From Burkholderia plantarii (lineage in GTDB: Bacteria; Pseudomonadota; Gammaproteobacteria; Burkholderiales; Burkholderiaceae), in the NCBI RefSeq assembly GCF_001411805.1, contig NZ_CP007213.1, positions 2,914,001 through 2,978,000 on the forward strand: a DNA stretch of 64,000 nt. The letters run 5' to 3'. A model generated the notes under the pieces. That model did not search any database. It worked only from the letters and a program-made list of their open reading frames with translations, and was not told the DNA's origin. The position numbers were made by a program, and so were the translations under genes. Positions within the stretch are counted from its first letter, which is position 1. The number at the start of each line of letters is the position of its first letter. Below, piece after piece: positions 8,980 to 31,765 of this stretch.

Positions 8980-8995
8980 CATGCTCTCGAGCATG
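8980..8995. promoter_or_regulatory. Inverted repeat spanning the XRE gene start codon (candidate operator)
   Basis: Perfect 7-base arms CATGCTC and GAGCATG with a TC spacer. The right arm includes the ATG of the XRE gene at 8993. A repeat here fits autorepression by the small XRE protein. A second A+T-rich palindrome, GTTAA-A-TTAAC, lies at 8924-8934 in the same divergent intergenic region. Confidence 0.4.
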
Positions 8996-9702: not shown

Positions 9703-10731
9703 CTAGTTAGACTTGAGCATTTCCCATACTTTGTTTCGCAACTTAATCGCTTGAACCGAGCACGCCTTATAAGGCTTCAACCGCGATTTCAGATTCTCTG
9801 GTGTCGCGAATGCCGGATTCGACAGAAGCGATTTATCAACAAAACGCTCGGACCCGACAATCTCGTTTCCATACATGTATGTGTTGGAAACAACCGCTAT
9901 GTTCTCCGGCCGCATCATCCAATTGACGAAGGTGTAGGCCGAGTCGAGATTCTTCGCCTTCGCCGGGATGAGCAAGCTGTCCATGAACAGCCGGACGCCT
10001 TCGCGCGGGTAGACGAACTTGACCGATGGCAGCGCCTTTTCGGCACGCACCGCGGCGCCGTTCCAGATCTGCTGGACGATGACCTGCTTCGATGCCATCC
10101 GATCGACCGGGCCGTCATTGCTATAGAGCTTGACCGCGGGCTTCTGCTGTTTGAGCACTGCGAGCACCCGCTTCGCGTCCTCTGGGCTCTCCGTACATTC
10201 GTCCTGCCCCAGGAACCAGCTCGCGGCCATGTAAAGCTCCTCCTGGACATCGAGGTCGGCCACCTCCCCTCGCAAGCTCGCGGGCGGGTTGAAGAACGGT
10301 CCCCAGGAATCGTCGAGGTGGCCGCCCGGGACACGTGCACTGTCATAGGCATAGCCGGTCAGTACGATCGTATAGGGCATGGCATAGTCGCGATTCTTGT
10401 CGAACGAAGGATGTTGATACTCCGGCCGGATGTTCGAGGCGTTCGGCAGCTTGGCCTTATCCAGCCGTGTCAGCAGCCCGTCCTTGGCCAGGATCGGAAC
10501 GTAGTAGTCGCCGGCGACCACTACGTCATAGGTTCCGCCACCGGCCTGCAGCTTCGTCAGCAGGCTTGCGTCGCTGTCGTAGGTGTCGAGGGTCGTCTTG
10601 ATCCCCGTTTCCTTCTGGAACTTTTGAAGCAACGCCGGGGGGAAATAGTCCGGCCAATTGCCAATGTGCAGCTCTGCGGCCTGCAGAGGGAGCGAGATCG
10701 CGATCAGCGTCGCCAGCAGTGTCGTTTTCAC
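9703..10731 (-). CDS. Polyamine-type ABC transporter substrate-binding protein (PotD/PotF family)
   Basis: 342 residues, the usual length. The GTG start at 10731 follows a strong AGGAGG and overlaps the permease stop by four bases (GTGA). A signal peptide ends near residue 19 ('ISLPLQAAELHIGNWPDYF'). Family signatures are 'LHIGNWPDYFPPALLQKF' at the mature N-terminus, 'TYDVVVAGDYYVPILAKDG' and 'TFVNWMMRPENIAVVSN'. The protein binds spermidine, putrescine or a related cation in the periplasm and delivers it to the permease encoded upstream. The exact ligand was not determined. The ATPase gene that normally completes the operon is not present. Confidence 0.88.
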   Translation of the reverse strand: MKTTLLATLIAISLPLQAAELHIGNWPDYFPPALLQKFQKETGIKTTLDTYDSDASLLTKLQAGGGTYDVVVAGDYYVPILAKDGLLTRLDKAKLPNASNIRPEYQHPSFDKNRDYAMPYTIVLTGYAYDSARVPGGHLDDSWGPFFNPPASLRGEVADLDVQEELYMAASWFLGQDECTESPEDAKRVLAVLKQQKPAVKLYSNDGPVDRMASKQVIVQQIWNGAAVRAEKALPSVKFVYPREGVRLFMDSLLIPAKAKNLDSAYTFVNWMMRPENIAVVSNTYMYGNEIVGSERFVDKSLLSNPAFATPENLKSRLKPYKACSVQAIKLRNKVWEMLKSN

Positions 10732-12440: not shown

Positions 12441-12966
12441 AGGAAATCGAATCTCTCCGTTCGATCAAAACCGAATGCCATTTCGGCAGTTCTTTTCGTT
12501 ATTGTGTCGACGACCCGAATACACGAATACACGAATACACGAATACACGAATACACGAAGGCATTCTTAGCGAACGGCCTTCACACTTCAACCATGCAGC
12601 CTAGACAAATTACGCCAAGGCTTCTGCTGTCTGCCGGCGGCCCGCCGTGCCAGTTGCAGCGTGCTCTTGACTGGACTATCTCCTACCGGGAAACAAAAGT
12701 CGGAAATATCAGACAATCAGTACGTATTCGGCGACTTTGTCCACCTATCAAAATAAACAATCTCGCCATTTATTTGCATTCGGCACACGATGACCGGCCC
12801 CGCGCCCGCGATTTTTCCACACTTCATTTTGATATCCGCTTGGGCGACTACACATTTCGCGCCAATTAAGATAATCTTATCTCGAACAGGCGCAAAAATA
12901 TCTCCTTAAATCATCACTGAAACTAAGGTGATATTGTCATTTTCCACAGGTAAACCTGACGCATTT
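12441..12966. other. A+T-rich intergenic region upstream of the permease operon
   Basis: About 525 bases with no supportable gene and lower GC than the surroundings. It contains the 8-base tandem repeat described separately. No ATPase gene or remnant of one is visible here. Confidence 0.5.
12516..12559. repeat. Perfect 8-base tandem repeat, five copies plus a half copy
   Basis: Unit CGAATACA repeated exactly five times (12516-12555) and followed by CGAA. It lies 76-120 bases upstream of the permease start, in its likely promoter or leader. Perfect short repeats of this kind change copy number by replication slippage, so expression of the transporter could vary between cells. Confidence 0.9.
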
Positions 12967-13443
12967 ATGGCAAATCTCGACACCGAAAACTTCTTGATCC
13001 GGCGAATCGTTCCAAGCGACATCGGCGACTACTACGACATTCGATTCTCGGTCACTGAAAACCGCATCCACCCTCACCAGATACACCTGCTGCAGCGCGA
13101 GGTCGTCTTGGAGAACATCAACACTTCAGGCGGGGCAATTTGCGTCGATCGACATTCAGGTGTTGCGGCAGGCGCAATGATGATTCTGATTACCTCGAAG
13201 CCGATGATATCAGCGCTCTTCGTTCGCCCGGTATACCAGGGTCTGGGGATCGGCAAGGCATTGCTGGACCGCGCGATCGAAATGAGCCGCGCAGCGGGAG
13301 TGGACGTCCTTACGCTCGTCACGGATCCGGGCTCCCGAGCCGACACGTTCTATCAACGGCAGGGATGGACGCGGGGCGGCCTGGACGAGTACGGCACCCA
13401 GGTCATCTTCACCAAACGCATCTTGGACGGGCGCGATGACTAG
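12967..13443 (+). CDS. GNAT-family N-acetyltransferase
   Basis: 158 residues with the GNAT fold: N-terminal 'FLIRRIVPSDIGDYYDIRFS', the acetyl-CoA loop 'VRPVYQGLGIGKALLDRAI' (the Q/RxxGxG/A motif) and a C-terminal 'ADTFYQRQGWTRGG' typical of motif B. It transfers an acetyl group from acetyl-CoA to an amine; the acceptor is unknown. ATG 12967 was chosen because the domain begins soon after; an in-frame GTG at 12928 is possible. It overlaps the next gene, an AraC regulator, by eight bases, so the two are co-translated. Confidence 0.85.
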   Translation: MANLDTENFLIRRIVPSDIGDYYDIRFSVTENRIHPHQIHLLQREVVLENINTSGGAICVDRHSGVAAGAMMILITSKPMISALFVRPVYQGLGIGKALLDRAIEMSRAAGVDVLTLVTDPGSRADTFYQRQGWTRGGLDEYGTQVIFTKRILDGRDD

Positions 13444-14470
13444 GCGGCCGACTCTCGGGGCCGACCTTGCTAGCGTGCGACCCGCGCCGCTTCACACGGC
13501 CATCATCGCGATCCGGCTCCTCCAAAAGCGCGGTGTCCCGGTCTCGGATCTCATTGCGGAGAGCGGCATCACGGAAAGCGACCTGAGCCGGCCGGACATG
13601 ATCATTTCGCACGAGCAAGAGATGATCGTCTTCGCGAATGCGCAGCGGCTCACCGGGACGGAAATCACCGGCGCGCTGATCGGCAAGGCAATACCGATCA
13701 CGGCGTACGGCGTGCGCGGCCACGCCATGCTCGTCGCCCCGACTCTCCGCGCGGCCATGAGCCTTGGTTTTTCGTACCCCCTGTTGGCAATCTCCTACTT
13801 CAAGATTTCGTTTCATGAGATTGGAAGCGATGCGGTCTTCCTGCTGGACGGCTATGCCTACCGTCAGGACCTCAGGGTATTTTCGTCCTTGATGTGCCTC
13901 GCCGCGGTGCAGCGGGAGATACTCGACTCCACCCGAGCTCCGGTGGAGTTCATCCGCGCTGAGTTCGACTTTCCACAACCGGACGATCACGAGGAATTGA
14001 CGCGGATTCTGGGCTGCCCGATCGTGTTCAATGCCCAGTCCACCTCGCTGTCGATTCCCAAGCATTACCTCGACACCGAGCTCCCCTTTCATCACGAGAT
14101 CGAATTCGAAATTGCCCGGGGGGAGTGTGCCAGGCAGGAACCGATGATGGCGACCTGGCAGCCGGAGCATATCGTTACCCGGGCGCTGCAAACGCTCCAT
14201 CGTCTCGATGGGCGACTCGACGCTCACGGACTCGCCGCGGAGCTGAACATGTCCCTGCGGTCAATGCAAAGAGAACTCGGCCACGCAGGCCTCAGCTTCC
14301 GAACGCTGCTCGACCAAGTGCGGCTCGCGCGCGCACTGGATCCGCTGTTTCAATCGGGGAAGTTTGGCCCGGAGGCTCACTCCAAGATGTTCGGCTACTC
14401 GACCAAGTTCGCGTTCGAGCGCGCCAAGGATCGGTGGACCGCGAAGAGCAAAAGCAAGATCAGTGGCTAG
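13436..14470 (+). CDS. AraC-family transcriptional regulator
   Basis: 344 residues. The N-terminal two thirds match the arabinose-binding-like domain of the OruR/ArgR-like AraC subgroup ('LLQKRGVPVSDLIAESGI', 'HAMLVAPTLRAAMSLGF'). The C-terminal HTH_18 region has 'LAAELNMSLRSMQRELGHAG' and 'FGYSTKFAFERAKDRW'. The second helix-turn-helix looks slightly worn: 'SKMFGYSTKFAFERA' replaces the usual GF.d.S.FsRAFKR. It overlaps the GNAT gene (ATGACTAG). It likely regulates the pair or the nearby transporter in response to a small ligand that is not known. Confidence 0.88.
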   Translation: MTRRPTLGADLASVRPAPLHTAIIAIRLLQKRGVPVSDLIAESGITESDLSRPDMIISHEQEMIVFANAQRLTGTEITGALIGKAIPITAYGVRGHAMLVAPTLRAAMSLGFSYPLLAISYFKISFHEIGSDAVFLLDGYAYRQDLRVFSSLMCLAAVQREILDSTRAPVEFIRAEFDFPQPDDHEELTRILGCPIVFNAQSTSLSIPKHYLDTELPFHHEIEFEIARGECARQEPMMATWQPEHIVTRALQTLHRLDGRLDAHGLAAELNMSLRSMQRELGHAGLSFRTLLDQVRLARALDPLFQSGKFGPEAHSKMFGYSTKFAFERAKDRWTAKSKSKISG

Positions 14471-14746
14471 CCGCCTTTCGATCAGTTGTCCTCCCGATTT
14501 TTTACCGAGATTTCCTGCTCGGGGCAGTCCTCTTTGGCCTGACCTAACGCGCGGCCTCGACGACATCGCGCACTTTGTCTTCGGCTCATCGCATCAGGCG
14601 TGCCCCCGCAGTCGCCACCCCAAGTCGACCCGCTCTCGGCCGGCGGCCATCCATTGTGGCTTGACGGGCTGCATGCTTCCCGATCCCGTTGAACCTGCTC
14701 GACGCATTCGGCCGCTGTGCGCTCGCTGACACGGTGCGAGCAGACG
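14471..14746. other. Intergenic region between the AraC gene and the small RNA
   Basis: No gene seen. A run of T (GATTTTTTACC) shortly after the AraC stop is not preceded by a clear stem. Confidence 0.4.
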
Positions 14747-14770
14747 AAAAAACCCTTCGCGAAGGAAGGG
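14747..14770 (-). terminator. Intrinsic terminator of the predicted small RNA
   Basis: On the minus strand: CCCTTC, a six-base loop, GAAGGG, then six T. No minus-strand protein gene ends here, which supports a separate RNA gene. Confidence 0.75.
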
Positions 14771-14897
14771 CCAAGCCCTGCTTACCGCCGCAGGGGCCTG
14801 CGGACGACGCGGTAGGCAGGTCACGACGCGGTCGTCGAACCGCGTCGCTCCGAGAAACGCAAGCGCACCGCGAGAGCGACGCGCAAATGTTACTACT
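14747..14897 (-). ncRNA. Predicted structured small RNA with its own promoter and terminator
   Basis: On the minus strand a sigma-70-like promoter is followed, about 150 bases later, by an intrinsic terminator, and no credible reading frame lies between them. The transcript can fold into several perfect stems: GACGCGGT/ACCGCGTC (14825-14846), CCGCAGG/CCTGCGG (14788-14803) enclosed by TACCGC/GCGGTA (14783-14814), and the terminator stem. It is divergent from an Arc-type repressor gene. Start and end are estimated from the promoter and U-tract. It may be a base-pairing regulator; its target is unknown, and no RNA family was recognised. Confidence 0.6.
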
Positions 14898-14903
14898 AGT
14901 GTC

Positions 14904-14933
14904 GCTATACGATTTCTGCGCTCGTAGTGTCAA
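14904..14933 (-). promoter_or_regulatory. Sigma-70 promoter of the predicted small RNA
   Basis: A perfect -35 TTGACA (14933-14928) and a -10 TATAGC (14909-14904) separated by 18 bases. Two direct copies of TAGTGTC (14897-14903 and 14925-14931) flank or overlap it and could be sites for the divergent Arc-type protein, which starts only ten bases beyond the -35 box. Confidence 0.7.
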
Positions 14934-14942
14934 ATCCGGCGG

Positions 14943-15266
14943 ATGGAAGACACACATCGCTCGCAATACCGGCTCCCCTGGTCCCTCTATGAACAGCTCA
15001 AGGCCTCGGCTGAAGCGCAACGTCGATCGATCAATGCGGAAATCGTCAGCCGCCTCACGATCAGCGTGGCGCAGAGCGAGCAATACGACCAACAAGTGAA
15101 GGCGGCCAAGCAGCGACGCAAGGACGGCGGGCGCCCGGTCGCTGAACCGGTACCGTCGGTCGAGCAGATCCTGGCGGTTTTACGCGTCGCTTTCGGGCCA
15201 AACGTGTTCACCGAAACCGAGTTGTTGTCCGCCGCCGCCCGCATTGAAGCGACGATGCAGAAGTAA
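14943..15266 (+). CDS. Arc-type ribbon-helix-helix DNA-binding protein
   Basis: 107 residues. The N-terminal half is an Arc/MetJ-like RHH: the strand 'SQYRLPWSLYEQLKASAEAQ' and the helix 'RSINAEIVSRLTISVAQ' match the phage Arc repressor pattern (F/YxLRxPxxLxxxLkxxAexxgrSlNaEIvxRL). A basic linker ('KAAKQRRKDGGRP') leads to a short C-terminal helical region with no known domain. Such proteins bind operators as pairs of dimers. It probably represses itself and the divergent small RNA, whose -35 box is ten bases from this start. No strong ribosome site is visible, so the mRNA may have a very short leader. A canonical terminator follows. Confidence 0.88.
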   Translation: MEDTHRSQYRLPWSLYEQLKASAEAQRRSINAEIVSRLTISVAQSEQYDQQVKAAKQRRKDGGRPVAEPVPSVEQILAVLRVAFGPNVFTETELLSAAARIEATMQK

Positions 15267-15285
15267 CCCCCTTGCTCTCAAAGAT

Positions 15286-15307
15286 AGCCCGCCGAAGCGG
15301 GCTTTTT
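15286..15307 (+). terminator. Intrinsic terminator of the Arc-type gene
   Basis: Stem AGCCCGC/GCGGGCT with a CGAA tetraloop, followed by TTTT. It lies 20 bases after the Arc-type stop codon. Confidence 0.92.
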
Positions 15308-15628
15308 CATTTCGCGTCGACCAGTTTCGTTCACTGCCAAGCCAGGTTCGCGGCACTTTAGGGCGCAATCGCGGGCGCGCTTAGCCTCCTCGAGCAGCGG
15401 CGCGCGCCACGCTATACCAAGCGGCCGGCATATGCTTGGGTCTGGCCATCGGTCCAGCTACGCGCCGCTGATTCCGCTGCCTACAGTAAGTCCGGCCCAA
15501 GCGGATATAAACACCTTGGGTTACACGCGCCAGCCCTCTCCGAATGCCCGCCTGCCCGCCGCAGTTCGAGTCGGCTCGGTCAGCGGACGGTCCGCTGGCT
15601 CAACCCAACCTATCGCATGGAGACCAGA
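15308..15628. other. Intergenic region after the Arc-type gene
   Basis: Nothing recognised in about 320 bases. Composition is mixed, and no repeat or attachment site was seen. Confidence 0.4.
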
Positions 15629-15940
15629 ATGCAGAAACCCGAAGACGCGCTTCGCCAGTCTCGCCCGTTGCGCAGCCCCGAGCAGATTGGCGCTGACACG
15701 ACGCCCTCGTATTTGCCGATGCCGGCTCTCCTTATTGCGCCCATTAAAGCGAAAATCCTCCTCGCCGCGGAGTGTTCGCGCAACGGAATCATCGACCGAC
15801 CTGTGGCCGACGACCGGAAATTCCGCGAGGTGCTTTGGCTGCTCCAGCGTTCCGATTATCAATTGGGATATTTCGACGTCCCATTGGCGTCGATTGTCGC
15901 GCTCCAGCACAAAAATATGGCGGACAACGCGTCCACCTAG
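15629..15940 (+). CDS. Small hypothetical protein
   Basis: 103 residues from ATG 15629, which has GGAG at good spacing; an in-frame ATG at 15617 has none. There is no signal peptide or membrane segment. The C-terminal half reads like a real folded protein ('RPVADDRKFREVLWLLQRSD', 'YQLGYFDVPLASIVALQHKN'). The family is not recognised. A longer open frame lies on the opposite strand (15521-16027), but its composition is less protein-like. A spurious frame cannot be excluded. Confidence 0.4.
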   Translation: MQKPEDALRQSRPLRSPEQIGADTTPSYLPMPALLIAPIKAKILLAAECSRNGIIDRPVADDRKFREVLWLLQRSDYQLGYFDVPLASIVALQHKNMADNAST

Positions 15941-16122
15941 CGCGAGTTGTTCGGTGGCCGGCTTGCACTTCGTCGTCTTTGTCTCCTTGATGCTCACTCG
16001 CGCGGCCCAGTATTTTTGAAAGTGCATAACACGCTCTTAACGACAGGCGCGCGGCGAGGCGTTTATGCTGTCGCTGTCGGACAGGCACCCGCCTTCATCC
16101 GTTTTCCGAATCGAGGATTCTC

Positions 16123-20327: not shown

Positions 20328-21215
20328 TCAGAGCCGCAACAGATGCTCGGCCACGTAGTCGACGAACACGCGCAGCTTCGGCGCGAGCTGGCGGCTGGAC
20401 GGCCACATCACACGGAACGTGGTCACGTCGCTGTTGTAGTCGTCGAGCACGCTGACCAGCGATCCGCTGGCCAGTTGCTCGCGGATCGCGATGTCGGGAA
20501 TGCAGGTCACGCCGAGCCCCTGCTCGGCGAAGCAGACGAGGGGCGCCAGCGTGTTGGCCACCATGCTGACCGGCAGGTCGGCGCTGAGGAAGCGCGCGCT
20601 CTCGCCGAGCGGCCAGACATCCAGCTTGCCGGTACTCGGATAGCGGTAGAGCAGGCAGGCGTGCCGCACCAGATCCTCGGGCCGCTCCGGCTTGCCGGCG
20701 CGGGAAAAATAGTCTGGATTCCCGACGATCACGCGCCGGTAATTGCCGATGGTCCGCGTGATCAGCCGCGAGTCGGTCGGCTCGCCGGTACGGATCACCA
20801 CGTCGAACCCCTCTTCGATCATCTCGACGTACCGGTCGCCGTAGTCGATGTCGAGCTCGATCTCGGGATACATGGCCTTGAACGCGGCGATCTTCTCGAT
20901 GAACAGCATGCCGATCGACGGCAGGCTGATGCGCAGCTTGCCGCGCGGGCTGTTCTGCAGGTGCTGCAGCTCGCATTCCGCCGCCTCGACCTCGCCGAGG
21001 ATGCGCCGGCACCGCCCGAGGAACAGCGTGCCCTCGGGCGTCAACGCGACGGTGCGCGTCGAGCGGTGAAACAGCCGCACGCCGACGCGCGTCTCGAGCC
21101 GGACGATGGCCTTGCTGACGGCCGACGTGGAGAGGCCGAGCTGCTGCGCCGCCGCCGTGAAACTGCGCGCCTCCGCCGCCCGCACGAAGACGTCCAGCGA
21201 TCCGAGATGTTCCAT
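20328..21215 (-). CDS. LysR-family transcriptional regulator
   Basis: 295 residues, the typical length. The N-terminal winged HTH is clear ('FVRAAEARSFTAAAQQLGLS', 'SAVSKAIVRLETRVGVRLFH'). The C-terminal co-inducer domain follows the DsdC/CrgA-type pattern ('GKLRISLPSIGMLFIEKIAA', 'GFDVVIRTGEPTDSRLITRT'). It is a cytoplasmic activator or repressor. Its target is not evident: the receptor gene converges on it, and 440 bases separate it from the end of the biosynthetic operon, which runs in the same direction. Confidence 0.93.
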   Translation of the reverse strand: MEHLGSLDVFVRAAEARSFTAAAQQLGLSTSAVSKAIVRLETRVGVRLFHRSTRTVALTPEGTLFLGRCRRILGEVEAAECELQHLQNSPRGKLRISLPSIGMLFIEKIAAFKAMYPEIELDIDYGDRYVEMIEEGFDVVIRTGEPTDSRLITRTIGNYRRVIVGNPDYFSRAGKPERPEDLVRHACLLYRYPSTGKLDVWPLGESARFLSADLPVSMVANTLAPLVCFAEQGLGVTCIPDIAIREQLASGSLVSVLDDYNSDVTTFRVMWPSSRQLAPKLRVFVDYVAEHLLRL

Positions 21216-21658: not shown

Positions 21659-22525
21659 TCAGGCCGCCAGCAATTGCGGCGTGAGCTTCAGCAGCACCAC
21701 GCCGACGATGATCGCGACGATCCCGGTCCACTGCGCCTGGCTGGGCCGCTCGTGGCGGATGAAGAAGCCGAGCAGCACGGTGACGCCGCTCGCGAGCGAA
21801 CTGAGCACGGTGACGATCGCGACGTGGCCGGTGGTGGCGCCGAACGCCAGCGAGAAGAAGCCGACCAGGCTGAACAGGCTGATCGACATCAGCAGCACCA
21901 CGATCGAGCCCGGCGGCGCGACCAGCTTGCGCTTGCCGACCAGCAGCAGGAACAGGATCACCACCGCGGTGAGGTAGTAGATCCACAGCGCGCCGAGCAC
22001 GCCGAGGCTCTTGACGGCGAACGCGCCCTGCAGCCAGAAGCCGAGCCCGAACGCGAGCGCCGAGAGCATCGCGAAGCCGATCGAGCCCGGCGATTCGGCC
22101 TTGCCGCCGCTCGATTTCGACATGCTCGCGAGGCTCGCGCCGACGATGCAGAGCGCGAGGCCCGCCACCGTCATGCCCGTCACCGACTGCCCGCCGAGCA
22201 CGGCCAGCAGCGTCGTGACCGCGCCGTACAGCGAGACGATCGGCGCCACCACCGAGGCCTTGCCGATCGACAGCGCCTTGAGCAGCGCGGCCATCGCCAC
22301 CAGGTTGCAGATCGCGGCGACGATCGCGATCAGCAGGCCCGTATCGATCGCCGCGATCCGCAGCGAGGCCGGCCGAAACGCCAGGACGGCGGTCAGCAGC
22401 AGGAAGCCGAACGACTGGCTGTAGAACAGCGAACGCGTCACGCCGACCTGCCGGGCGGCCTGCCCCGCCATGAAATCGGTACTGCCCCAGCACAACGCGG
22501 AAATCAAGCCCATCAGGATTGCCAT
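21659..22525 (-). CDS. DMT-superfamily (EamA-like) exporter of the biosynthetic operon
   Basis: 288 residues with ten predicted membrane segments in two five-helix EamA repeats. It starts 'MAILMGLISALCWGSTDFMA' and ends 'IVGVVLLKLTPQLLAA'. ATG 22525 has GAGG at five bases; an in-frame ATG at 22537 does not. DMT proteins export amino acids, nucleosides or small metabolites. As the last gene of the six-gene operon that starts at 28694 it is the natural exporter or self-resistance protein for the product. Confidence 0.9.
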   Translation of the reverse strand: MAILMGLISALCWGSTDFMAGQAARQVGVTRSLFYSQSFGFLLLTAVLAFRPASLRIAAIDTGLLIAIVAAICNLVAMAALLKALSIGKASVVAPIVSLYGAVTTLLAVLGGQSVTGMTVAGLALCIVGASLASMSKSSGGKAESPGSIGFAMLSALAFGLGFWLQGAFAVKSLGVLGALWIYYLTAVVILFLLLVGKRKLVAPPGSIVVLLMSISLFSLVGFFSLAFGATTGHVAIVTVLSSLASGVTVLLGFFIRHERPSQAQWTGIVAIIVGVVLLKLTPQLLAA

Positions 22526-22632
22526 GTCGCCTCTCATTTTGTTTTCGGATGCGGGCCGCCGAGGCCGGGATGGCCCCGCATCGGCCAGCACTGCGAAGAT
22601 AGTGCATTTGCGCCGGGAATGGGTACCACGCC

Positions 22633-23853
22633 TCATTCGACCTCGACGCGCACGCTGGCGGCGAGTGCCCGCGCGTGCCGCATCGCCTCGTCGCAACTGG
22701 CGCCGTGGGCGAGCACGTAACCGATCACGGAGCCGAAGTTGCGCGAGCCGGTGGTGGAGACGAACGGCAGCTTGCGGAATCCGCTCGCGATGTAGTGCGG
22801 ATCCGACGACGCGAACCGGATGTCGCGAATCGTGCCGGCCTCGGGACAGAACACGAACGCGTCGGCCACGTAGGCGTGGGCACGCTCGACGCGCGGCTCG
22901 ACCGGCGCCGCGCGGCCGAGGCAGAAGTCGATCAGCAGGCGCACCATGTCGACGCCCGAGGTCAACGCGATCTGCCGTACCGCGCGCGCGCCCGCGATGC
23001 GCAGGTTGATCTCGACCAGCATCGGCCCGCGCCCGGTCAGGATGAACTCGACGTTGAGCGCGCCGCCGCTCAGGCCCAGCGCGGCGATCCAGTCGAGTAT
23101 CACGGCCCCGAGCGCGTCGGCGTCGGCCGGCGACAAATCGGACGGATGCGAGATGCCCGTCATGCACAGGCCGTCCTCGGGCGCGACGAAGATCCGGTTG
23201 ATGCCGAGGATCCGCCAGGCGCCGGCGGCATGGATCAGTTCGGCGCCGTAGAAGCGGCCTTCGAGAAATTCCTCCGCGAGATAGGTGGCCTGCGGCCGCC
23301 CCAGCATCGAGCGCACGCCGCCGGCCCGGATCCGCTCCACCGCGGCCGCGTAATCGTGTTCGTCACGGCACAGGCTCACGTTGTAGGCGCCGGCGTCGCG
23401 CAGCGGCTTGATCACGCACGGAAAGCCGATGCCGGGCCGCGCCGGCAGCGCGTCGGCCCGCAGCAGCTCGTAGGCCGGCTGCGCGAAGCCATGACGGACC
23501 AGCACGTCGCGCACCTGCTTCTTGCTGAACGCGTTGCGCAGCCCGTCGAGCGACGGATGCGGCAAGCCCAGCGCCGCCGCGACCTCGGCCGCCGGAATCA
23601 CGAAATCGTCGAAGCAGCCGAGCACGCCCGCCACCTCGAGGCCGCGCCCGGCCACGAACGCCAGCATCGCGGCCACGTCGCGCGTGTCGACTTCATGCAC
23701 GGCATCGAACAACGACAGGTCGAGATCGTCGTAAAGCGTCTTGTTCATGCGGTTCAGCGAGGTCAGCAGCACCGGCGAGAGGCCCGCTTCGCGCAGGTAG
23801 GCGATGCCGGCGCATTCGATCGGCCGCGCCTCGATGAACAGGAATGTCTTCAT
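22633..23853 (-). CDS. ATP-grasp ligase
   Basis: 406 residues, organised like carbamoyl-phosphate-synthase/BL00235-type ATP-grasp ligases. It has an N-terminal Rossmann-like part ('MKTFLFIEARPIECAGIAYL'), the ATP-binding strand 'GIGFPCVIKPLRDAGAYNVS' with the conserved Lys, 'TYLAEEFLEGRFYGAEL', and the metal site 'GPMLVEINLRIAGARAV' (Glu and Asn of the ExN motif). Such enzymes activate a carboxylate as acyl phosphate and join it to an amine or thiol, often giving dipeptides. A clear AAGGAG precedes ATG 23853. In the operon it sits between a RidA gene and the exporter, so it probably performs a late ligation. Substrates are unknown. Confidence 0.9.
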   Translation of the reverse strand: MKTFLFIEARPIECAGIAYLREAGLSPVLLTSLNRMNKTLYDDLDLSLFDAVHEVDTRDVAAMLAFVAGRGLEVAGVLGCFDDFVIPAAEVAAALGLPHPSLDGLRNAFSKKQVRDVLVRHGFAQPAYELLRADALPARPGIGFPCVIKPLRDAGAYNVSLCRDEHDYAAAVERIRAGGVRSMLGRPQATYLAEEFLEGRFYGAELIHAAGAWRILGINRIFVAPEDGLCMTGISHPSDLSPADADALGAVILDWIAALGLSGGALNVEFILTGRGPMLVEINLRIAGARAVRQIALTSGVDMVRLLIDFCLGRAAPVEPRVERAHAYVADAFVFCPEAGTIRDIRFASSDPHYIASGFRKLPFVSTTGSRNFGSVIGYVLAHGASCDEAMRHARALAASVRVEVE

Positions 23854-23932
23854 GTCTGCCGCTCCTTCACGACGTGCGATGGGGGGGGAGATGCGCGCGG
23901 CGGCCGGGCCGCCCGCCGCGCGGGACGGCGCG

Positions 23933-24337
23933 TCAGTCGTCGACGATCGCGATCGCGGTGATCTCGACGACGTGCTCGGGCCTGACGAGCGACTTCACCG
24001 CCACCGTGGTGTTGACCGGGCGGATCTCGCTGAAGCGCTCGCTGAACGCGCGGCAATAGCCGTCGAAATGCTCGAAGCCGGTCAGGTGGGTCGTGGTGCT
24101 GACCACGTCGTCCAGCCGGGCGCCCAGCTGGTTCAGGTACTTCTCGATCTTGCCGATCACGAATACGGTCTGGTCGTAGGCGTTGTCGCCGATCACCTCG
24201 GCGTTGCCGTCCGATGCCACGCAGCCGGCGATGAAGACCTGGTTGCCGACGCGCTTGCCGCGCGCGTAGCCCATCTTGTCTTCCCAGAAGGACGGGCTGA
24301 ACACGGTGTTTCTCGTTGAATCGAGACTGGTGGACAT
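23933..24337 (-). CDS. RidA/YjgF/UK114-family protein
   Basis: 134 residues. Family features are 'NQVFIAGCVASDGN', 'QTVFVIGKIEKYLNQLGARL', 'VVSTTTHLTGFEHFDGYCRA' and the signature end 'PVNTTVAVKSLVRPEHVVEI'. The usual Arg that contacts the substrate carboxylate (R105 in RidA) aligns with the 'RPEHVVEI' stretch, where the motif normally reads RxxxxVxVxxLP. RidA proteins hydrolyse reactive enamines and imines; pathway-specific members tune biosynthetic steps. GAGGTGAAAC precedes the ATG. Its place inside a biosynthetic operon suggests an enamine or imine intermediate. Confidence 0.9.
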   Translation of the reverse strand: MSTSLDSTRNTVFSPSFWEDKMGYARGKRVGNQVFIAGCVASDGNAEVIGDNAYDQTVFVIGKIEKYLNQLGARLDDVVSTTTHLTGFEHFDGYCRAFSERFSEIRPVNTTVAVKSLVRPEHVVEITAIAIVDD

Positions 24338-24428
24338 GGCTGTTTCACCTCATGAAGGATGGAATGAAAGGATGGGTGCCGCGCCGCGCCGCGGCCGACG
24401 CGAGCCGGACGGCGCGCGCACGGCGGGC

Positions 24429-25964
24429 TCAGGACACGAAATGGAAGTACCCCGATTCGGAATAGTCCTTGCCGGCTTCCTTGAAGCGCCGGGTCGGGAA
24501 CGGATAGCCGCTGGACAGATACTTTTGCGCGAAGTACAGCGCCGGCCGGTCCGACAGGCCGATCTCGCGCAGCCGGTCCGCCACCACGATGTCGCCCGAG
24601 GCGGCCTCGCCGAGCCCCTCGATGTGATCGATGATGGTGTTCTTCACGCCGCTGCCGTCGGGCATGCGGATCTTCGGGCGATCGATGATGTAGTCGGGCA
24701 GCGCGTCGCGGAACGCCTCGCGCAGGATGTATTTCTCGACGCCGTCGCGCAGCTTGTACGAGAAGTCGAGGCCCAGCACGTAGTCGATCAGCGCCGCGTC
24801 CATGAACGGCACGCGCGCCTCCACGGTGTTGCGCATGCTGGCGCGATCGACGCGCTGCAGGTCGGTGCGGTGCAGGTTGTTGAGCCGGTACAGCGACAGC
24901 GCGTCCGGCGCGGCGTGGGTCTTGAACAGGTCGTAGCCGGCGAAGATCTCGTCGCTGCCCTCGCCGCACAGCGATACCTTGAAGCCGAGCCTGCTGGCCA
25001 CGTAGTAGCCGAAGTGCGCGATGGTGGAATCGATCGCGTCGATCTTCTCGAAGAACTCGCCGTAGTAGACCGCGTCGTCGATATTGGCGATCAGGTCCTG
25101 CTTCGTGAACGTGTAGGTGACGAGCCGGATGTCGTGCTCGGCGCAGTAGCGCTGCGCGACCTCGGTGTCCTTCGAGCCGGGCAGGCCGAACGTGATCGCC
25201 GTGACGTCGGGGTGGTACTGCTTGGCCAGATACAGCACGATCGCGCTGTCGATGCCGCCGCTGAACATCACCGCGACCGGCAGGTCGGTATCGACGCGCC
25301 GCCGCACCGACTCCTCGAGCAGGACGCGCACGCGCGCCCTCGCAACCTCGAAGCTGTCGCGGCTGGCCGGATGGTTCTCGTCGTAGCGCGCGTAGCGGTA
25401 CGGCGCGGCGCCGTCGAACAGCGTGCCCGGTTCGAGCGTCTGGATCTCCACGCCGAGCCCGGTCAGCGACTTGATCTCGGAGGCCACGTACCAGACCTGG
25501 TCGCGGCTCGCGTAGTAGAGCGGCTTGATGCCGACGTGATCGCGGCCGATCAGGAAGCTGCCGTTGCGATTGTCGTAGATCACGAAGCTGAACATGCCGT
25601 CGAGCCTGGTCGCGAAGTCGCGGCCGTACTCGATGTAGGCCCGCAGCAGCACCTCGGCGTCGCCGCCCTGGAAACGATGGCCGCGCGCCTTCAGCTCGTC
25701 GCGGATTTCCCGGTAGTTGTAGATCTGCCCGTTCAGCACGGCATGGATGTCCAGCTCGTGATCCGAGGCGGGTTGGCGGGCATGGTCGCGCTCGAGGATC
25801 GCGAGCCGGTTGGTCGACAGGCCGAAACGCGGCCGGATCAGGTTCTCGTTGAAGCGCGAAGCGTCGCCGCGATGCGCGATCTTGGTCATCAAGGCGGTCA
25901 GCGAAGGCTCGAGATCGTCGATCGACGAGCGCTGCGTCGTGAAAATGGCGCCGATTCCACACAT
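24429..25964 (-). CDS. Asparagine-synthetase (AsnB)-family glutamine amidotransferase
   Basis: 511 residues, a little shorter than AsnB (about 550). It starts Met-Cys-Gly-Ile-Gly, with Cys2 as the glutaminase nucleophile after Met removal. The glutaminase domain shows 'AHRGDASRF', 'NGQIYNYREIRDEL' and 'GDAEVLLRAYIEYG'. The synthetase domain has the PP-loop 'VMFSGGIDSAIVLYLA' and 'LCGEGSDEIFAGYDLF' as in AsnB. It amidates a carboxylate using ATP and glutamine; in secondary metabolism relatives form amides or beta-lactams. Because all glutaminase residues are present, an ammonia-transfer (amide) reaction is more likely than beta-lactam formation, where Cys2 is often lost. It is third in the operon. 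Confidence 0.92.
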   Translation of the reverse strand: MCGIGAIFTTQRSSIDDLEPSLTALMTKIAHRGDASRFNENLIRPRFGLSTNRLAILERDHARQPASDHELDIHAVLNGQIYNYREIRDELKARGHRFQGGDAEVLLRAYIEYGRDFATRLDGMFSFVIYDNRNGSFLIGRDHVGIKPLYYASRDQVWYVASEIKSLTGLGVEIQTLEPGTLFDGAAPYRYARYDENHPASRDSFEVARARVRVLLEESVRRRVDTDLPVAVMFSGGIDSAIVLYLAKQYHPDVTAITFGLPGSKDTEVAQRYCAEHDIRLVTYTFTKQDLIANIDDAVYYGEFFEKIDAIDSTIAHFGYYVASRLGFKVSLCGEGSDEIFAGYDLFKTHAAPDALSLYRLNNLHRTDLQRVDRASMRNTVEARVPFMDAALIDYVLGLDFSYKLRDGVEKYILREAFRDALPDYIIDRPKIRMPDGSGVKNTIIDHIEGLGEAASGDIVVADRLREIGLSDRPALYFAQKYLSSGYPFPTRRFKEAGKDYSESGYFHFVS

Positions 25965-26000
25965 GGCTTTCTCTCGGGAAGGTTGTCGGGGCGAGCGCGC

Positions 26001-27356
26001 TCAGGCGCGTTCGAGGGCGGCGGCGGGATAGGTCAGCTCGGCGACCTGCGCGCCCAGCGACGCGATGTCGGCGAAATACCCGGGATAGGTCTGGCCGACG
26101 TGGAACGGCTCCCTGATCAGCACCGGCTCCTTGCAGTGCAGGCCGATCGTGGTCAGGCCCATGATCAGCCCGTGATCGTAGTGGCCGTCCAGCACCACGC
26201 CGCCCGCGTAGCCGCGCGGATTGCCGTGGATGATCAGCTGGTCGAGCTTCTCGTCGGAATGCACGCCGAGCTTGTCGAGTTCGCGGCGGAAGTCGGAGAT
26301 CCGGTCGGACTCCTTGTAGCGGATGTGCTCGATGTTGTGGAACACGCTGGTGCCGTTCGCGAACGCGGCGCGCGCGGCCAGCGCCGGCACCGCGTCGGGC
26401 GCGAGCGAGCCGTCGAAGTCGCGGGCCCGGATCTGGGTGCCGCCCTCGACGCGGATGCGGTTGTCGTCGAGCGGCGTGATGCGCGTGCCGGTGTCGGTCA
26501 GGTACTGGATCACCGCGCCGTTGCCCAGCTCCTCCTCGAAGAAGCCGTTCAGCGTCACGTCGGCCGTCAGCGAGCCGCACAGCGCGAGGATCGCCGCGGT
26601 GCTGGCCGGGTCCGCGCCGACCGTGAAGCTGCTGGCGCCGAAGCGGCTCGCGCCCTTCACGAAGAAGCGGCGAAACGCGTCGTCGTACTCCACCGGCACG
26701 CCCGCGTGGCGCAGGTTGTTGATCGTCGTGTGGACCATCGACGGCGCCGTGATGTGGTCGGTCACCAGGATCTCGAGATCGCCGTCGCCGACCGCGCCGA
26801 GATACAGCAGGCCGCTCAGGAATTGCGAACTCTTGCGGCACGACACCTCGGTGTAGCCGCTCAGGCGCCGGTCCGAGCGGATCCGGATCGGCAGCCGCGC
26901 GTCATCGCCCACCGCCTCGCACTGCACGTTCAGGCGACGCAGCGCGCTGATCATCTCGGCCTGCGAGCGCACCCCGAGCGAGTGGCGATACTGCGTGACG
27001 AACTCGCTGTCGGGCAGGTAGCCGGCCACGCCCATCAGCAGGCGCAGCACCACGCCCGAATTGCCGGGATCGAAGCTGATCGGGCGCTCGACGTGGCGCA
27101 CGTCGATACCCTTGACCGTCGTGTGGCCGCCCTCGCTGCTGAACGACGCGCCGAGCCGCTCGCAGTTCTGCTTCATCGCCGTGGCGTTGAAGCCCGAGGC
27201 CAGGTTGCGGATCGAGCTGATGCCCGGCGTCAGCGACGCCGTCAGCAGCGCGCGCGTCGACGAACTCTTCGAGGCCGGCAGATCGAGGGTCCCGCCCAGC
27301 TTCGCGGTTTGACTGATTTCGAAGAAACTCGGCGACTGATTGCTTCGTGTTGTCAT
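26001..27356 (-). CDS. EPSP-synthase (AroA)-family protein, second copy in the operon, altered PEP site
   Basis: 451 residues with the full two-domain enolpyruvyl-transferase fold. Conserved, compared by eye with E. coli AroA: 'LPASKSSSTRALL' (Lys22, Ser23, Arg27), 'GNSGVVLR' (Asn94, Gly96, Arg100), 'KSSQFLSGLL' (Ser169-Gln171), 'LAPDAVPALA' (catalytic Asp313) and 'YKESDRIS' (Glu341, Arg344). Changed: the DHR motif reads 'YDHGLIMG', losing Arg386, and the K-T-F-P motif reads 'GQTYPGYF', losing Lys411. Both lost residues bind PEP phosphate or carboxylate. The protein therefore probably binds a shikimate-phosphate-like ring but may not use PEP normally. It is not the housekeeping aroA; context is a biosynthetic operon with a second, differently altered paralogue 36 bases upstream. 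Confidence 0.9.
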   Translation of the reverse strand: MTTRSNQSPSFFEISQTAKLGGTLDLPASKSSSTRALLTASLTPGISSIRNLASGFNATAMKQNCERLGASFSSEGGHTTVKGIDVRHVERPISFDPGNSGVVLRLLMGVAGYLPDSEFVTQYRHSLGVRSQAEMISALRRLNVQCEAVGDDARLPIRIRSDRRLSGYTEVSCRKSSQFLSGLLYLGAVGDGDLEILVTDHITAPSMVHTTINNLRHAGVPVEYDDAFRRFFVKGASRFGASSFTVGADPASTAAILALCGSLTADVTLNGFFEEELGNGAVIQYLTDTGTRITPLDDNRIRVEGGTQIRARDFDGSLAPDAVPALAARAAFANGTSVFHNIEHIRYKESDRISDFRRELDKLGVHSDEKLDQLIIHGNPRGYAGGVVLDGHYDHGLIMGLTTIGLHCKEPVLIREPFHVGQTYPGYFADIASLGAQVAELTYPAAALERA

Positions 27357-27392
27357 GGCTGTTCCATTGGCAGGGAGGGGAAGGACGCGCGC

Positions 27393-28694
27393 TCAGGCGA
27401 TCTCGGCGCCCAGGGCGCGCAGCGTCTCGATGAAGCGGGGGAAGCCGTCGTCCAGCTTGTCGGCGTCGTGGACCACCGTTTTCTGCTTCGCGCCCAGCGC
27501 GGCGATGATGTTCGCCGCGCAGATCCGGTGATCGCGGTAGCTCGGCAGCTCGGTGCCGCCGGCCAGCGGCCCGCGCCCCTCGATCTGGATCCGGTCGAAC
27601 ATGCCGATGCTGTTGAACAGCAGCGAACTGCGACCGCCCATGGCGCGGATGTTCTCGCTGATCACGAAGGCGCGTTGGCACTTGTGGTTGTTGATGCCGC
27701 TCACGCCGGCGAAGCGGATCCGCTCGCCGAGATTCGAGGTGGCGGCGATCAGGTTCGCCGCCACCGAAGGCAGCTCGCTCAGCGAGATTTCCTCGCTCGC
27801 CCCGCGCGGCGGCGCCTCGCGCGAGACGCGCAGCGCGCGGCCTGCCGCGTCGTAGTCGAGCGCGAGCCCGAACTGCCGGTAGAGGCCGAACAGCCGGCCT
27901 TCGTTCAGCGTGTGGCCGGGGTAGTAGCCGCCGATCGTCACGCCGCCGGGCCGGCCGATGCTGAGCACCGACGAGGCGAGATAGCTGAGCGAGGTGAAAT
28001 CGGACGGGATGTCGATCGTGATGTCGCCGGGCCGATAGGCGCTCGCGCTCATGCGGCCGGGCTCGTGCGTGACGGTGCTGCCGAGCAGCGCCATGGTCCG
28101 GACCGTCATGTCGATGTAGCCGGCCTGCCCCGCGTAGGGCTCGACGAGGATCTCGGGCCGCTCGCCGAACGGCGCGACGAACAGCGCGAACGAGGCGAAC
28201 TGCGTGCTCTTGCGCGTGGTCATCGGGATGCGCGCCGGATACGGCTTGCGCGTGATCTCGACGAGATTGCCGTCGCGGCGGCGCGCCTGCACGCCGAGGT
28301 GGGAGAAGAACGCCTCGTCGAACACGCTGTCGCGACTGAACAGCGAATCGTTGCAGCGAATCCGCACCGTACCGCCCGCCAGCGAGGCCAGCGCCACGCT
28401 CATCCGGAACAGCATGCCGGAGCCTTCCGCCTCGATCGGCGCGCCGGCCTCGAGCCGGCGCCCCACTCCGCGCAATCGCAGCGCATGCGCTTCCCGGGTC
28501 AGGATCTTCAGACCGAAATGCTGCAGGGCAGCCAATAATTTTTCGGTTTCGGTACACCAGGAGACGTTATTGATACACGTTGTTTCGGAATTGAGCAGAG
28601 CCAGCAGCAACGCTCTCTGCATATGCGGCTTCGAGGCCGGAATCGCGACCCTGCCCGCGAGTTCAGCTCCCGGATAAACAGTCACTTTGCTCAC
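27393..28694 (-). CDS. EPSP-synthase (AroA)-family protein, first gene of the operon, highly divergent
   Basis: 433 residues from GTG 28694, which has GGGAG seven bases upstream (an in-frame GTG at 28700 is too close). The AroA fold is clear: 'IPASKPHMQRALLLALL' (Lys22 and Arg27 kept, Ser23 replaced by Pro), 'EGSGMLFRMSVALASL' (Asn94 lost, Arg100 kept), 'KSTQFASFALF', 'AGYIDMTVRTMALLG' and 'PSYRDHRICAANI' (Arg386 kept). The catalytic acids are gone: the Asp313 region reads 'SELPSVAANL', the KExDR motif reads 'NNHKCQRAF' (Glu341 lost), and the Lys411 region reads 'LDDGFPRFIE'. Normal EPSP chemistry seems impossible. It may do elimination or isomerisation on a related ring, or be a binding partner of the next gene product. 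Alignment is by eye. Confidence 0.87.
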   Translation of the reverse strand: MSKVTVYPGAELAGRVAIPASKPHMQRALLLALLNSETTCINNVSWCTETEKLLAALQHFGLKILTREAHALRLRGVGRRLEAGAPIEAEGSGMLFRMSVALASLAGGTVRIRCNDSLFSRDSVFDEAFFSHLGVQARRRDGNLVEITRKPYPARIPMTTRKSTQFASFALFVAPFGERPEILVEPYAGQAGYIDMTVRTMALLGSTVTHEPGRMSASAYRPGDITIDIPSDFTSLSYLASSVLSIGRPGGVTIGGYYPGHTLNEGRLFGLYRQFGLALDYDAAGRALRVSREAPPRGASEEISLSELPSVAANLIAATSNLGERIRFAGVSGINNHKCQRAFVISENIRAMGGRSSLLFNSIGMFDRIQIEGRGPLAGGTELPSYRDHRICAANIIAALGAKQKTVVHDADKLDDGFPRFIETLRALGAEIA

Positions 28695-29646: not shown

Positions 29647-29863
29647 GTCCGCTGCCGGCGGCCGGCTCCCGGAGCCTTCCGCCTGTTTTTCCCGATCGCC
29701 CCTGGTTCCTGTTCCGCGCCTTGCGCCGGACGCGAGCGTGTCCTTGCGGTTTCGCTCGCCGTCCGGATCCGTCGTCATGGCGGCGCGGCACGCGGAGCCG
29801 GCGATCCATCCGTCACCGACATCGAAACCGTCCGGCGCTCACGAGGCGACCGGGCCACGACAC

Positions 29864-31765
29864 ATGACCCAATCTACCGATCGTCAAGGCAGCCGGCCGT
29901 TCAGCGACGTGCTCGGCTTCACGTTCCGCCGCTGGCGCGACCAGCCGCTGCGCTTCACCGGCGTCACGCTGTTCGCGCTGCTCGCCGCGCTCTGCGACGT
30001 GCTTACCCCGATGTTCGCGGGCCGCCTGGTCGACGCGATCTCGCTCGGCCTGACCGACCGCGCCGCCGCCCTGGCCGCCGCGCTGCACGCGTTCGCCGCG
30101 CTGGTCTCGCTCGGCGTGGCGGGCGCGCTGCTGCACCAGGTGATGTTCATGAACCTGATCCAGCTGACGCTGCGCATGATGAGCGAGGTGGCGGCGGGCG
30201 CGTTCCATCGCGTGCAGCGCTTCTCCACGGACTGGCACGCCAACAGCTTCGCCGGCTCCACGGTCCGCAAGATCACGCGCGGCATGTGGGCGCTCGACCT
30301 GCTCAACGACACGCTGCTGATCGCGCTGCTGCCGTCGGTGGTGATGCTGGCCGGCGCGACGCTGCTGCTCGGCCTGCACTGGCCGGTGATGGGGCTGGTG
30401 GTGGGGGTGGGCTCGCTGCTGTTCATCGCGGTCACCGTGTCGCTCTCGCTCGGCCTGATCGCGCCGGCCGCGCGGCTCGGCAACGCGTGGGACACGCGGC
30501 TGGGCGGCGCGCTCGCCGATTCGGTCAGCTGCAACGCGGTGGTCAAGGCGTTCGGCGCCGAGACGCGCGAGGAAGCGCGGATCGGCCGCGTGATCGGCAA
30601 GTGGCGGCTGCGCACGCGGCGCACCTGGCTGCGCGGCACGCTGAGCGGCTGCGCGCAGGCCACCCTGCTGGTGCTGATGCAGGCGGCCATGCTCGGCAGC
30701 GCGCTGTGGCTCTGGACGCACGATCGCGCGAGCGTGGGCGACATCGCGTTCGCGCTGACGATGTTCTTCATGCTGCAGGGCTACCTGCGCGACATCGGCA
30801 TGCACATCCGCAACCTGCAGCGCTCGGTCAACGACATGGAGGAACTGGTCGCGCTCGACAGCCAGCCGCTCGGCATCGACGACGCACCCGGCGCGCCGCC
30901 GATCACGATCACGCGCGGCGAGATTCGTTTCGAGCACGTCACGTTTCGCTACGGCTCGCGCGGCGCCCCGCTCTATTCGGACTTCTCGCTGCGCATCGCG
31001 CCGGGCGAGCGGCTCGGACTGGTCGGCCACTCGGGCTCGGGCAAGACCTCGTTCATCAAGCTGATCCAGCGGCTCTACGACGTGGACGGCGGGCGCATCA
31101 CGATCGACGGGCAGGACATCGCGCAGGTCACGCAGGCCTCGCTGCGCAGCCGCATCGCGATCGTGCAGCAGGAGCCGGTGCTGTTCCACCGCTCGCTCGC
31201 CGACAACATCGCCTACGCGCGCCCCGGCGCCACGCGCGAGGAAATCGTGCATGCAGCCACGCTGGCGAGCGCGCACGGCTTCATCGCGGCGCTGCCGGAC
31301 GGCTACGACACGCTGGTGGGCGAGCGCGGCGTGAAGCTGTCGGGCGGCGAGCGCCAGCGCGTGGCGATCGCGCGCGCGTTCCTGGCCGACGCGCCGGTGC
31401 TGATCCTCGACGAGGCCACCTCGAGCCTCGACAGCGAGAGCGAGCTGCTGATCCAGCACGCGATGGAACGGCTGATGGAGGGGCGCACCACGATCGTCAT
31501 CGCGCACCGGCTGTCGACCGTGCGCTCGCTCGATCGCCTGCTCGTGCTCGATCGCGGCCGCGTGATCGAGGAAGGCAGGCACGACGCGCTGATCCGCATC
31601 GAGGGCGGCGTCTATCGGCGCCTGTTCGAGCAGCAGGCGCTCGAACTCGCGAAGGGGCTGATCGAGCAGACGGGCGGCTACGGCATCGACGGGCTGCGCA
31701 CGCCGACGCCGGGCGCGGACGGCCGTGGCAACGGCGCGCGCGATCCGGCGCTCGGGGCGTCGTAG
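29864..31765 (+). CDS. ABC exporter, permease and ATPase fused (half-transporter)
   Basis: 633 residues from ATG 29864; an in-frame ATG at 29777 would add 29 residues of low-complexity sequence. The transmembrane domain has six helices ('RFTGVTLFALLAALCDVL', 'LLIALLPSVVMLAGATLLLG'). The ATPase domain has Walker A 'GHSGSGKT', signature 'LSGGERQRVAIARAF', Walker B 'VLILDEATSSLD' and H-loop 'IAHRLSTV', all intact. It lacks the C39 peptidase domain of bacteriocin exporters. It resembles MsbA/multidrug or cyclic-peptide half-exporters that work as homodimers; the substrate is unknown. A terminator hairpin follows. Confidence 0.92.
   Translation: MTQSTDRQGSRPFSDVLGFTFRRWRDQPLRFTGVTLFALLAALCDVLTPMFAGRLVDAISLGLTDRAAALAAALHAFAALVSLGVAGALLHQVMFMNLIQLTLRMMSEVAAGAFHRVQRFSTDWHANSFAGSTVRKITRGMWALDLLNDTLLIALLPSVVMLAGATLLLGLHWPVMGLVVGVGSLLFIAVTVSLSLGLIAPAARLGNAWDTRLGGALADSVSCNAVVKAFGAETREEARIGRVIGKWRLRTRRTWLRGTLSGCAQATLLVLMQAAMLGSALWLWTHDRASVGDIAFALTMFFMLQGYLRDIGMHIRNLQRSVNDMEELVALDSQPLGIDDAPGAPPITITRGEIRFEHVTFRYGSRGAPLYSDFSLRIAPGERLGLVGHSGSGKTSFIKLIQRLYDVDGGRITIDGQDIAQVTQASLRSRIAIVQQEPVLFHRSLADNIAYARPGATREEIVHAATLASAHGFIAALPDGYDTLVGERGVKLSGGERQRVAIARAFLADAPVLILDEATSSLDSESELLIQHAMERLMEGRTTIVIAHRLSTVRSLDRLLVLDRGRVIEEGRHDALIRIEGGVYRRLFEQQALELAKGLIEQTGGYGIDGLRTPTPGADGRGNGARDPALGAS

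Follow-up and report, generated by a model that had tools for sequence, protein, structure and literature searches.

Bacilysin is a dipeptide of a glutamine antagonist, and BacD is its alanine-anticapsin ligase; the dapdiamide pathway combines amide formation and ligation in one small pathway, which is not known to include a homologue of 5-enolpyruvylshikimate 3-phosphate (EPSP) synthase; and the ansatrienin-type cyclohexane carboxylate pathway uses such a homologue together with reductases and a coenzyme A (CoA) ligase. Here we describe an operon of Burkholderia plantarii (contig NZ_CP007213.1), found in a stretch of 64,000 nucleotides (positions 2,914,001 to 2,978,000 of the contig; hereafter, the window), which encodes two proteins of the EPSP-synthase fold, AroA1 and AroA2, an AsnB-like amide synthetase, a RidA-family protein, an ATP-grasp ligase and a predicted EamA exporter. 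EPSP-synthase homologues are known as recruits to specialised metabolism (PMC9231227; this and the other articles are cited from the parts of their text that were consulted); operons of ATP-grasp and AsnB genes have been described, with no mention of an EPSP-synthase homologue in the text consulted (PMC2922099); and, according to the proposal made in the bisenarsan study, BsnM transfers a pyruvate group from EPSP to arsenate (PMC12159101). No described cluster with the six-gene combination was found in the open-access literature, judged mostly by titles and the beginnings of abstracts, in agreement with a preliminary description of this DNA, which could not match the combination to any described pathway.

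The six open reading frames (ORFs) span positions 21659-28694 of the window, all on the minus strand, with intergenic gaps of 36, 36, 91, 79 and 107 bases; the layout given in the preliminary description, with gaps of 36-107 bases, is borne out by the ORF, Pfam and NCBIfam analysis. The same description held that neither AroA-like protein has the full EPSP-synthase active site. This stands, and the changes turn out to be fixed in each of the two families. Judged by its residues, neither AroA1 nor AroA2 is an ordinary EPSP synthase.

The AroA1 family was counted over 35 aligned sequences, 34 of them distinct, after leaving out P0016, P0020 and P0021 (shorter than 400 residues) and P0001 (a near copy of the window AroA1); residues are numbered as in E. 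coli EPSP synthase. K22, R27, R100, R124, Q171, Y200, R344, D384, H385 and R386 are kept in 35/35, and in the same 35 sequences S23 is changed to Pro, N94 to Gly, D313 to Ser or Thr, K340 to His, and E341 to Lys. The window protein accordingly has K-P at positions 22/23, H-K at 340/341, and the D-H-R triplet retained. Its score of 133.6 bits is far from the NCBIfam aroA cut-off of 287.25. In terms of residue roles in EPSP synthase, AroA1 retains most of the residues that hold phosphoenolpyruvate (PEP), and has lost acid/base and hydroxyl-binding ones.

The pattern in AroA2 is different. Among 79 sequences (P0060, of less than 400 residues, was left out, and P0119-P0129 entered neither this count nor the control), K22, S23, R27, N94, R100, R124, S169, S170, Q171, D313, K340, E341, R344 and D384 are invariant, so that the set on the side of shikimate 3-phosphate, together with the acid/base residues (S23, R27, S169, S170, D313, K340, E341), is intact throughout. 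In all 79, N336 is replaced by His, Y200 by Met or Pro, and R386 by Gly (50) or Ala (29). Ala stands at S197 in 74 sequences; at K411, 77 have Gln, one has Lys and one has a gap. AroA2 also has Val or Ile at T97. The window AroA2 has Gly in place of R386 and retains the acceptor-side residues; at 285.2 bits it misses the aroA cut-off by 2 bits. AroA2 has thus retained the acid/base and hydroxyl-binding residues, with R386 of the PEP site lost. Two of the proteins left out of the count may be mentioned separately: in P0127, R386 is replaced by Ser and K411 by Gln, and P0120 has the look of an ordinary enzyme.

As a control, we used 112 homologues outside both families: a length criterion gave 109 of 129 listed proteins, to which we added the ordinary aroA of the genome itself, the third AroA of Streptomyces microflavus and a Paenibacillus AroA. 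D313, E341, R344, H385 and R386 are kept in 112/112 of these, and K340 in 111/112. K411 is not used as evidence, because its control column is badly aligned, with Lys in just 55 of the 112. A published account assigns parts of the ligands to domains of EPSP synthase rather than to single residues (PMC8983318). The idea that the two proteins are ordinary EPSP synthases was rejected on the missed NCBIfam cut-offs and on the fixed losses relative to this control. In a tree of 45 sequences, which contains several long branches, including that of the Streptomyces AroA1, AroA1 and its sister type form a group (100/99), and AroA2 joins Paenibacillus- and Deinococcus-type enzymes (95/95). AroA1 and AroA2 therefore descend from two distinct lineages of EPSP synthase, and neither is a duplicate of the other, which also rules out a recent duplication of one AroA.

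A profile scan of genome contigs with the AroA1 alignment, requiring one of two short peptide patterns, yielded 15 loci. AroA1 and AroA2 are neighbours in every one of them, AsnB comes next in 14, and RidA, ATP-grasp and EamA genes are all there in ten. With the window and locus L043 added to these ten, the number of genomes with the full six-gene set is 12, all from Burkholderia, Rahnella and Photorhabdus (L044 and L045, whose contigs are as long as those of L008 and L020, were counted as the same as these). In Rahnella and Photorhabdus the ATP-grasp and EamA genes lie on the opposite strand and the set is still together. The AroA1-AroA2-AsnB core is also present in Xenorhabdus, Phyllobacterium, Roseobacter and on a plasmid of S. 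microflavus (L049). Scan loci lacking the full set are L016, a contig of 4.7 kb; L018, which starts 1.1 kb before AroA1 and has no RidA, ATP-grasp or EamA gene in the 10 kb downstream; L021 and L022, alphaproteobacterial variants each with an EamA gene of its own; and L019 of Hafnia alvei, apparently a decaying cluster, where AroA2 and a shortened AroA1 frame of 353 residues occupy 10004-12674 and AsnB is missing.

The set is rare and kept together. The close AroA1 type (more than 660 bits) occurs in 4 of 65 Burkholderia genomes, and nine further ones have AroA1 matches of 333-414 bits, three of which were assigned to the sister clade. Within the E-value limits applied, AroA2 occurs in 2 of 149 Photorhabdus-family genomes, in 1 of 398 genomes of the phylum (that of B. 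plantarii itself), and in 1 of 390 genomes of the Roseobacter order (the one that supplied the query). Among named records, the closest to AroA2 comes from Burkholderia perseverans, at 98% identity. Thirty-seven AroA1-type clusters were listed; in 12 of these the length of the longest contig equals that for an AroA2-type cluster, and by eye the two were taken to be one contig. The ratio of nonsynonymous to synonymous substitution rates (dN/dS) of the six genes is 0.17-0.24 against Burkholderia catarinensis (L008) and 0.26-0.47 against L043; these values, and the presence of the same set together across genomes, rule out decay or a chance neighbourhood. Pairwise distances correlate at 0.83-0.98 for the six genes over eight loci and at 0.98-0.99 for the core three over 12 loci; shared vertical descent would produce the same. 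A sister AroA1-like family is represented by L003 and L004, near 2084462 and 2351769 of contig 2 of the same genome, and by L042 and L047; it forms a clade of its own, with K-P, H-K and D-H-R kept (K-P and H-K as read in L003, L004 and P0024), and its clusters are a second cluster type.

The AsnB-like protein retains its N-terminal Cys together with the SGGIDS and GEGSDE motifs; this Cys and GEGSDE are found in all 12 cluster members, with the pyrophosphate (PP) loop in the form SGG/SAGxDS. The TTxRAS stretch, present in 1ct9 and in human ASNS, is replaced in 12/12. In a model of human ASNS, the acidic residues of GEGSDE bind the amino group of aspartate (PMC6748925). A role of AsnB in mere asparagine supply was set aside, as it would leave the AroA pair unexplained. 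The ligase has both the ATP-grasp core and the C-terminal domain of BacD-type enzymes (ATP-grasp_4, 45.9 bits; LAL_C2, 29.5 bits, barely above the 29.4 cut-off), and its nearest solved relatives are BacD (47.5 bits, E 1.4e-11), BL00235 and other L-amino-acid ligases. In RidA, Asn replaces the usual arginine, which is R105 in E. coli RidA, in all eight aligned cluster members, as also judged by alignment to solved relatives.

Genes adjoining the core in relatives point to glutamine. An adenylation-thiolation-thioesterase (A-T-TE) synthetase lies beside the cluster in L008, L009 (Rahnella) and L018 (Xenorhabdus bovienii), as recognised by Pfam in L008 and L018 and by alignment in L009. The S. 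microflavus plasmid carries AroA1, AroA2, AsnB, an ORF of 77 residues, an A-T-TE into which some 400 residues are inserted, and, at the end of the cluster (22927-24249), its third EPSP-synthase homologue, which scores 366 bits, above the NCBIfam aroA cut-off, and keeps most site residues, with N94 replaced by Ser and K340 by His. Pfam gives the insert no name; it was identified when the protein was aligned with full-length relatives. The L049 synthetase is 37-39% identical, over 93-97% of its length, to proteins of Streptomyces lavendulae, Streptomyces clavuligerus and Leisingera, which we take to be indigoidine synthetases, although their records do not name the pigment; the L008 A-T-TE shares 52% identity with that of S. 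clavuligerus. The assignment was made in part from the S. lavendulae neighbours, a pseudouridine-5'-phosphate glycosidase and a tautomerase, which fit the cluster of PMC3992020.

The nine-position adenylation (A) domain codes are DAWQLGMIN (L008), DAWQLGLCN (L009), DAWQLGVCN (L018) and DAWQAGVIN (L049); those of the three indigoidine-type relatives are DAWQFGVIN, DAWQFGLIN and DAWQLGLIN, and the published L-glutamine signature is DAWQFGLINK (PMC3992020). All four synthetases combine a glutamine-type code, one or two conservative differences away from the references (more in L049, at position 299), with the thioesterase (TE) serine. The oxidase domain is absent in L008, L009 and L018; that of L049 carries Gln in place of Arg539 and Pro in place of Ser603. 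The R539A variant of IdgS loses flavin mononucleotide (FMN) and pigment, and the TE then releases (S)-3-aminopiperidine-2,6-dione; pigment formation was not clearly affected by S603A (PMC10989907). Since the oxidase is missing or altered, all four A-T-TE proteins should go no further than a ring-closed imide of glutamine. Phyllobacterium (L021) has an ectoine synthase after AsnB, and a 58% identical ORF is found in Roseobacter (L022). A glutamine-like amino acid is the only type of substrate that the A-T-TE, the ectoine synthase and the BacD-like ligase could all use, which suggests it as their substrate. Beside the A-T-TE we also observed a protein (8281-9990 in L018, 569 residues; 20020-21299 in L008, cut by the end of the locus) that begins with a formyltransferase domain and whose C-terminal part has no Pfam name.

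From these observations we infer substrates, an order of steps, a product and a possible role as an antimetabolite. That the operon makes a glutamine analogue, exported as a dipeptide, is the explanation that we tentatively favour, its probability falling a little short of even. AroA1 and AroA2 would make an amino acid resembling glutamate, and would probably do so by transferring a three-carbon unit of the enolpyruvyl type. Such a unit would bring a fresh carboxylate, which would account for AsnB as a core member; by family homology, AsnB would convert this carboxylate to a primary amide. RidA may handle an imine or enamine intermediate or by-product; the BacD-like ligase would couple the glutamine analogue to an ordinary amino acid, as in bacilysin; and EamA, going by its family, would export the dipeptide. 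In relatives, the product could be ring-closed by the A-T-TE without an intact oxidase, or by the ectoine synthase. A more specific version, possible and rather doubtful, is a relay in which the enolpyruvyl group, donated by PEP or else by EPSP (shikimate 3-phosphate then being a reusable carrier), passes to an amino-acid acceptor, giving a carboxyvinyl-type glutamate analogue that AsnB would convert to a glutamine mimic. EPSP, and not PEP, may be the donor, in line with the proposal for BsnM; it could be supplied in L049 by the third AroA. The preliminary description had proposed a compact route to a small molecule, be it a modified amino acid, an amide or a dipeptide; this fits the gene set, and the glutamine-like specification is an addition drawn from the relatives.

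Several observations weigh against the glutamine-analogue dipeptide. The window's own cluster has neither A-T-TE nor ectoine synthase, so that the glutamine clue comes from relatives, and in those the A domain may activate plain L-glutamine as a second building block. EctC is able to ring-close L-glutamine, slowly (PMC5924519). With S23, R27, S169, S170, D313 and K340 kept, the site of AroA2 is better suited to a substrate of the shikimate type than to an amino acid. Two other aligned AsnB-family proteins of the genome also lack TTxRAS, so that its loss is not special to the cluster and is a weak point. The actinomycete evidence consists of one neighbourhood, that of S. microflavus.

The retained site of AroA2 lends itself to another scheme, in which the AroA pair turns shikimate 3-phosphate, without PEP and for instance by eliminating phosphate or water, into a cyclohexene or cyclohexadiene carboxylate, AsnB amidates its ring carboxylate, and an amino acid is joined later. 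The residues that hold shikimate 3-phosphate, kept in 79/79 with R386 of the PEP site gone, speak for it, and the scheme is closer to the ansatrienin parallel drawn in the preliminary description. We nevertheless consider it unlikely, if a serious contender: the glutamine-type A-T-TE and the ectoine synthase beside the core are left unexplained, an L-amino-acid ligase needs an amino acid, and the partners in the ansatrienin-type pathway, reductases and a CoA ligase, are absent from the six genes. The constant adjacency of the two genes (15/15) and their complementary retained residues would also suit a single split enzyme, a heteromer with one working site, or a pair in which one protein assists the other. 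This is distinctly improbable, as the losses (D313 and E341 in AroA1, R386 in AroA2) fall in the same domain, with limits taken in part from PMC8983318, so that a domain swap restores no full site, and each protein has its own fixed pattern.

Two further explanations keep EPSP-synthase activity in place. AroA2 could be a resistance or supply enzyme in a cluster whose remaining genes make an inhibitor of the shikimate pathway; the Val or Ile at T97 recalls T97I, a known glyphosate-tolerance change (PMC8983318), and the S. microflavus cluster contains a third, nearly complete EPSP synthase, which may serve in supply, in resistance or as a pathway enzyme. The loss of R386 in 79/79 AroA2 sequences, against its retention in 112/112 ordinary homologues, makes this very improbable, and AroA1 would have no explanation. 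That both are ordinary EPSP synthases brought together by chance is hardly credible: public records do name both 3-phosphoshikimate 1-carboxyvinyltransferase, and AroA2 scores only just under the aroA cut-off, yet residues that are otherwise invariant are lost in a fixed manner, the six-gene set is conserved, and the genome has another aroA. The latter is L001, a separate gene that is ordinary judged by its residues, so that the case envisaged in the preliminary description, two ordinary enzymes in a genome with no other aroA, does not apply.

L001 lies on contig 1 of the host genome (8.08 Mb, three contigs, seven genes with an EPSP_synthase domain) together with L002, taken as murA; contig 2 has the other five, including AroA1, AroA2, L003 and L004. 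The features of the operon are collected below. The GTG start of AroA1, at 28694, agrees with the starts of homologues. The LysR protein encoded beyond EamA is 65% identical to the cluster-side LysR of Rahnella (L009) and 60% to that of Xenorhabdus (L018), and is a possible regulator of the operon. A divergent ABC transporter at 29738-31765 was rejected as an operon member, having no counterpart in the other compared loci. A promoter and terminator scan gave 1 and 5 hits, against 0.9 and 5.0 expected, and a plasmid search at the DNA level produced no match.

Coordinates of the operon genes and the candidate regulator in the window
Feature	Position	Strand	Basis
AroA1, EPSP-synthase-fold protein	27393..28694	-	Pfam EPSP_synthase, 115 bits
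AroA2, EPSP-synthase-fold protein	26001..27356	-	Pfam EPSP_synthase, 208 bits
AsnB-like glutamine-dependent amide synthetase	24429..25964	-	Pfam Asn_synthase and GATase
RidA-family protein	23933..24337	-	Pfam Ribonuc_L-PSP
ATP-grasp ligase, L-amino-acid ligase type	22633..23853	-	Pfam ATP-grasp and LAL_C2
EamA (DMT) exporter, predicted	21659..22525	-	Pfam EamA; 288 residues from ATG at 22525
LysR-type regulator, candidate for operon control	20328..21215	-	likeness to cluster-side LysR in relatives

Elsewhere in the window, the stretch 6001-16000 has a GC content of 0.57-0.62, against 0.65-0.77 across most of the remainder, and is possibly a younger insertion. A minus-strand ORF of 359 residues at 8008-9087 has as its sole match the C-terminal domain of FtsZ (residues 271-358, E 1e-10), and a VgrG-like protein (Phage_GPD, Gp5_trimer_C, Phage_base_V), of a type VI secretion system or phage-tail spike, is encoded on the minus strand at 4508-7498.

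If a glutamine-analogue dipeptide is indeed the product, the operon would represent new chemistry for a textbook enzyme fold, that of the glyphosate target; its two residue signatures would help to find clusters hidden behind a plain aroA annotation; and a small exportable glutamine mimic would be predicted in plant-, soil- and insect-associated bacteria. Should the enolpyruvyl relay hold as well, it would be a new route to glutamine antimetabolites across Proteobacteria and actinomycetes, ending in a dipeptide ligase, a glutamine-cyclising synthetase or an ectoine synthase. The rebuilt AroA sites amount to natural experiments open to direct assay.

Each of the known systems shares a part of this arrangement. 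The bisenarsan cluster of Streptomyces lividans, with BsnM, likewise recruits an EPSP-synthase homologue to specialised metabolism, but it has a single one, along with a phosphoglycerate mutase, a phosphonopyruvate decarboxylase and a polyketide synthase, and a second AroA, AsnB and ATP-grasp go unmentioned in the text consulted (PMC12159101). The indigoidine and minimycin synthetases (IdgS, BpsA/IndC, MinA) resemble the A-T-TE proteins of L008, L009, L018 and L049 in the kind of A-domain code and in the TE serine; indigoidine clusters are described, in the sections consulted, without an AroA1-AroA2-AsnB core, and the window has no A-T-TE. Bacilysin offers a ligase of the BacD family and a model for the product, but the similarity of the ligases is low, and no bac enzyme of the prephenate branch was recognised among the six genes with Pfam and NCBIfam. 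The ATP-grasp protein is also related to DdaF of the dapdiamide pathway, at 40 bits, far below the DdaF model cut-off of 840 bits. In the sister Burkholderia clusters L042 and L047, an AroA1-like protein with K-P and H-K is found near two ATP-grasp genes; these clusters differ by DUF1611 in both, a malic enzyme in L042, and an aminotransferase and PhyH in L047, and no separate AroA2 or AsnB match was found in the two stretches. The operon of the window is of a known kind, and its core of two separately derived and separately rewired EPSP synthases is a variant for which the open-access literature searched gave no match.

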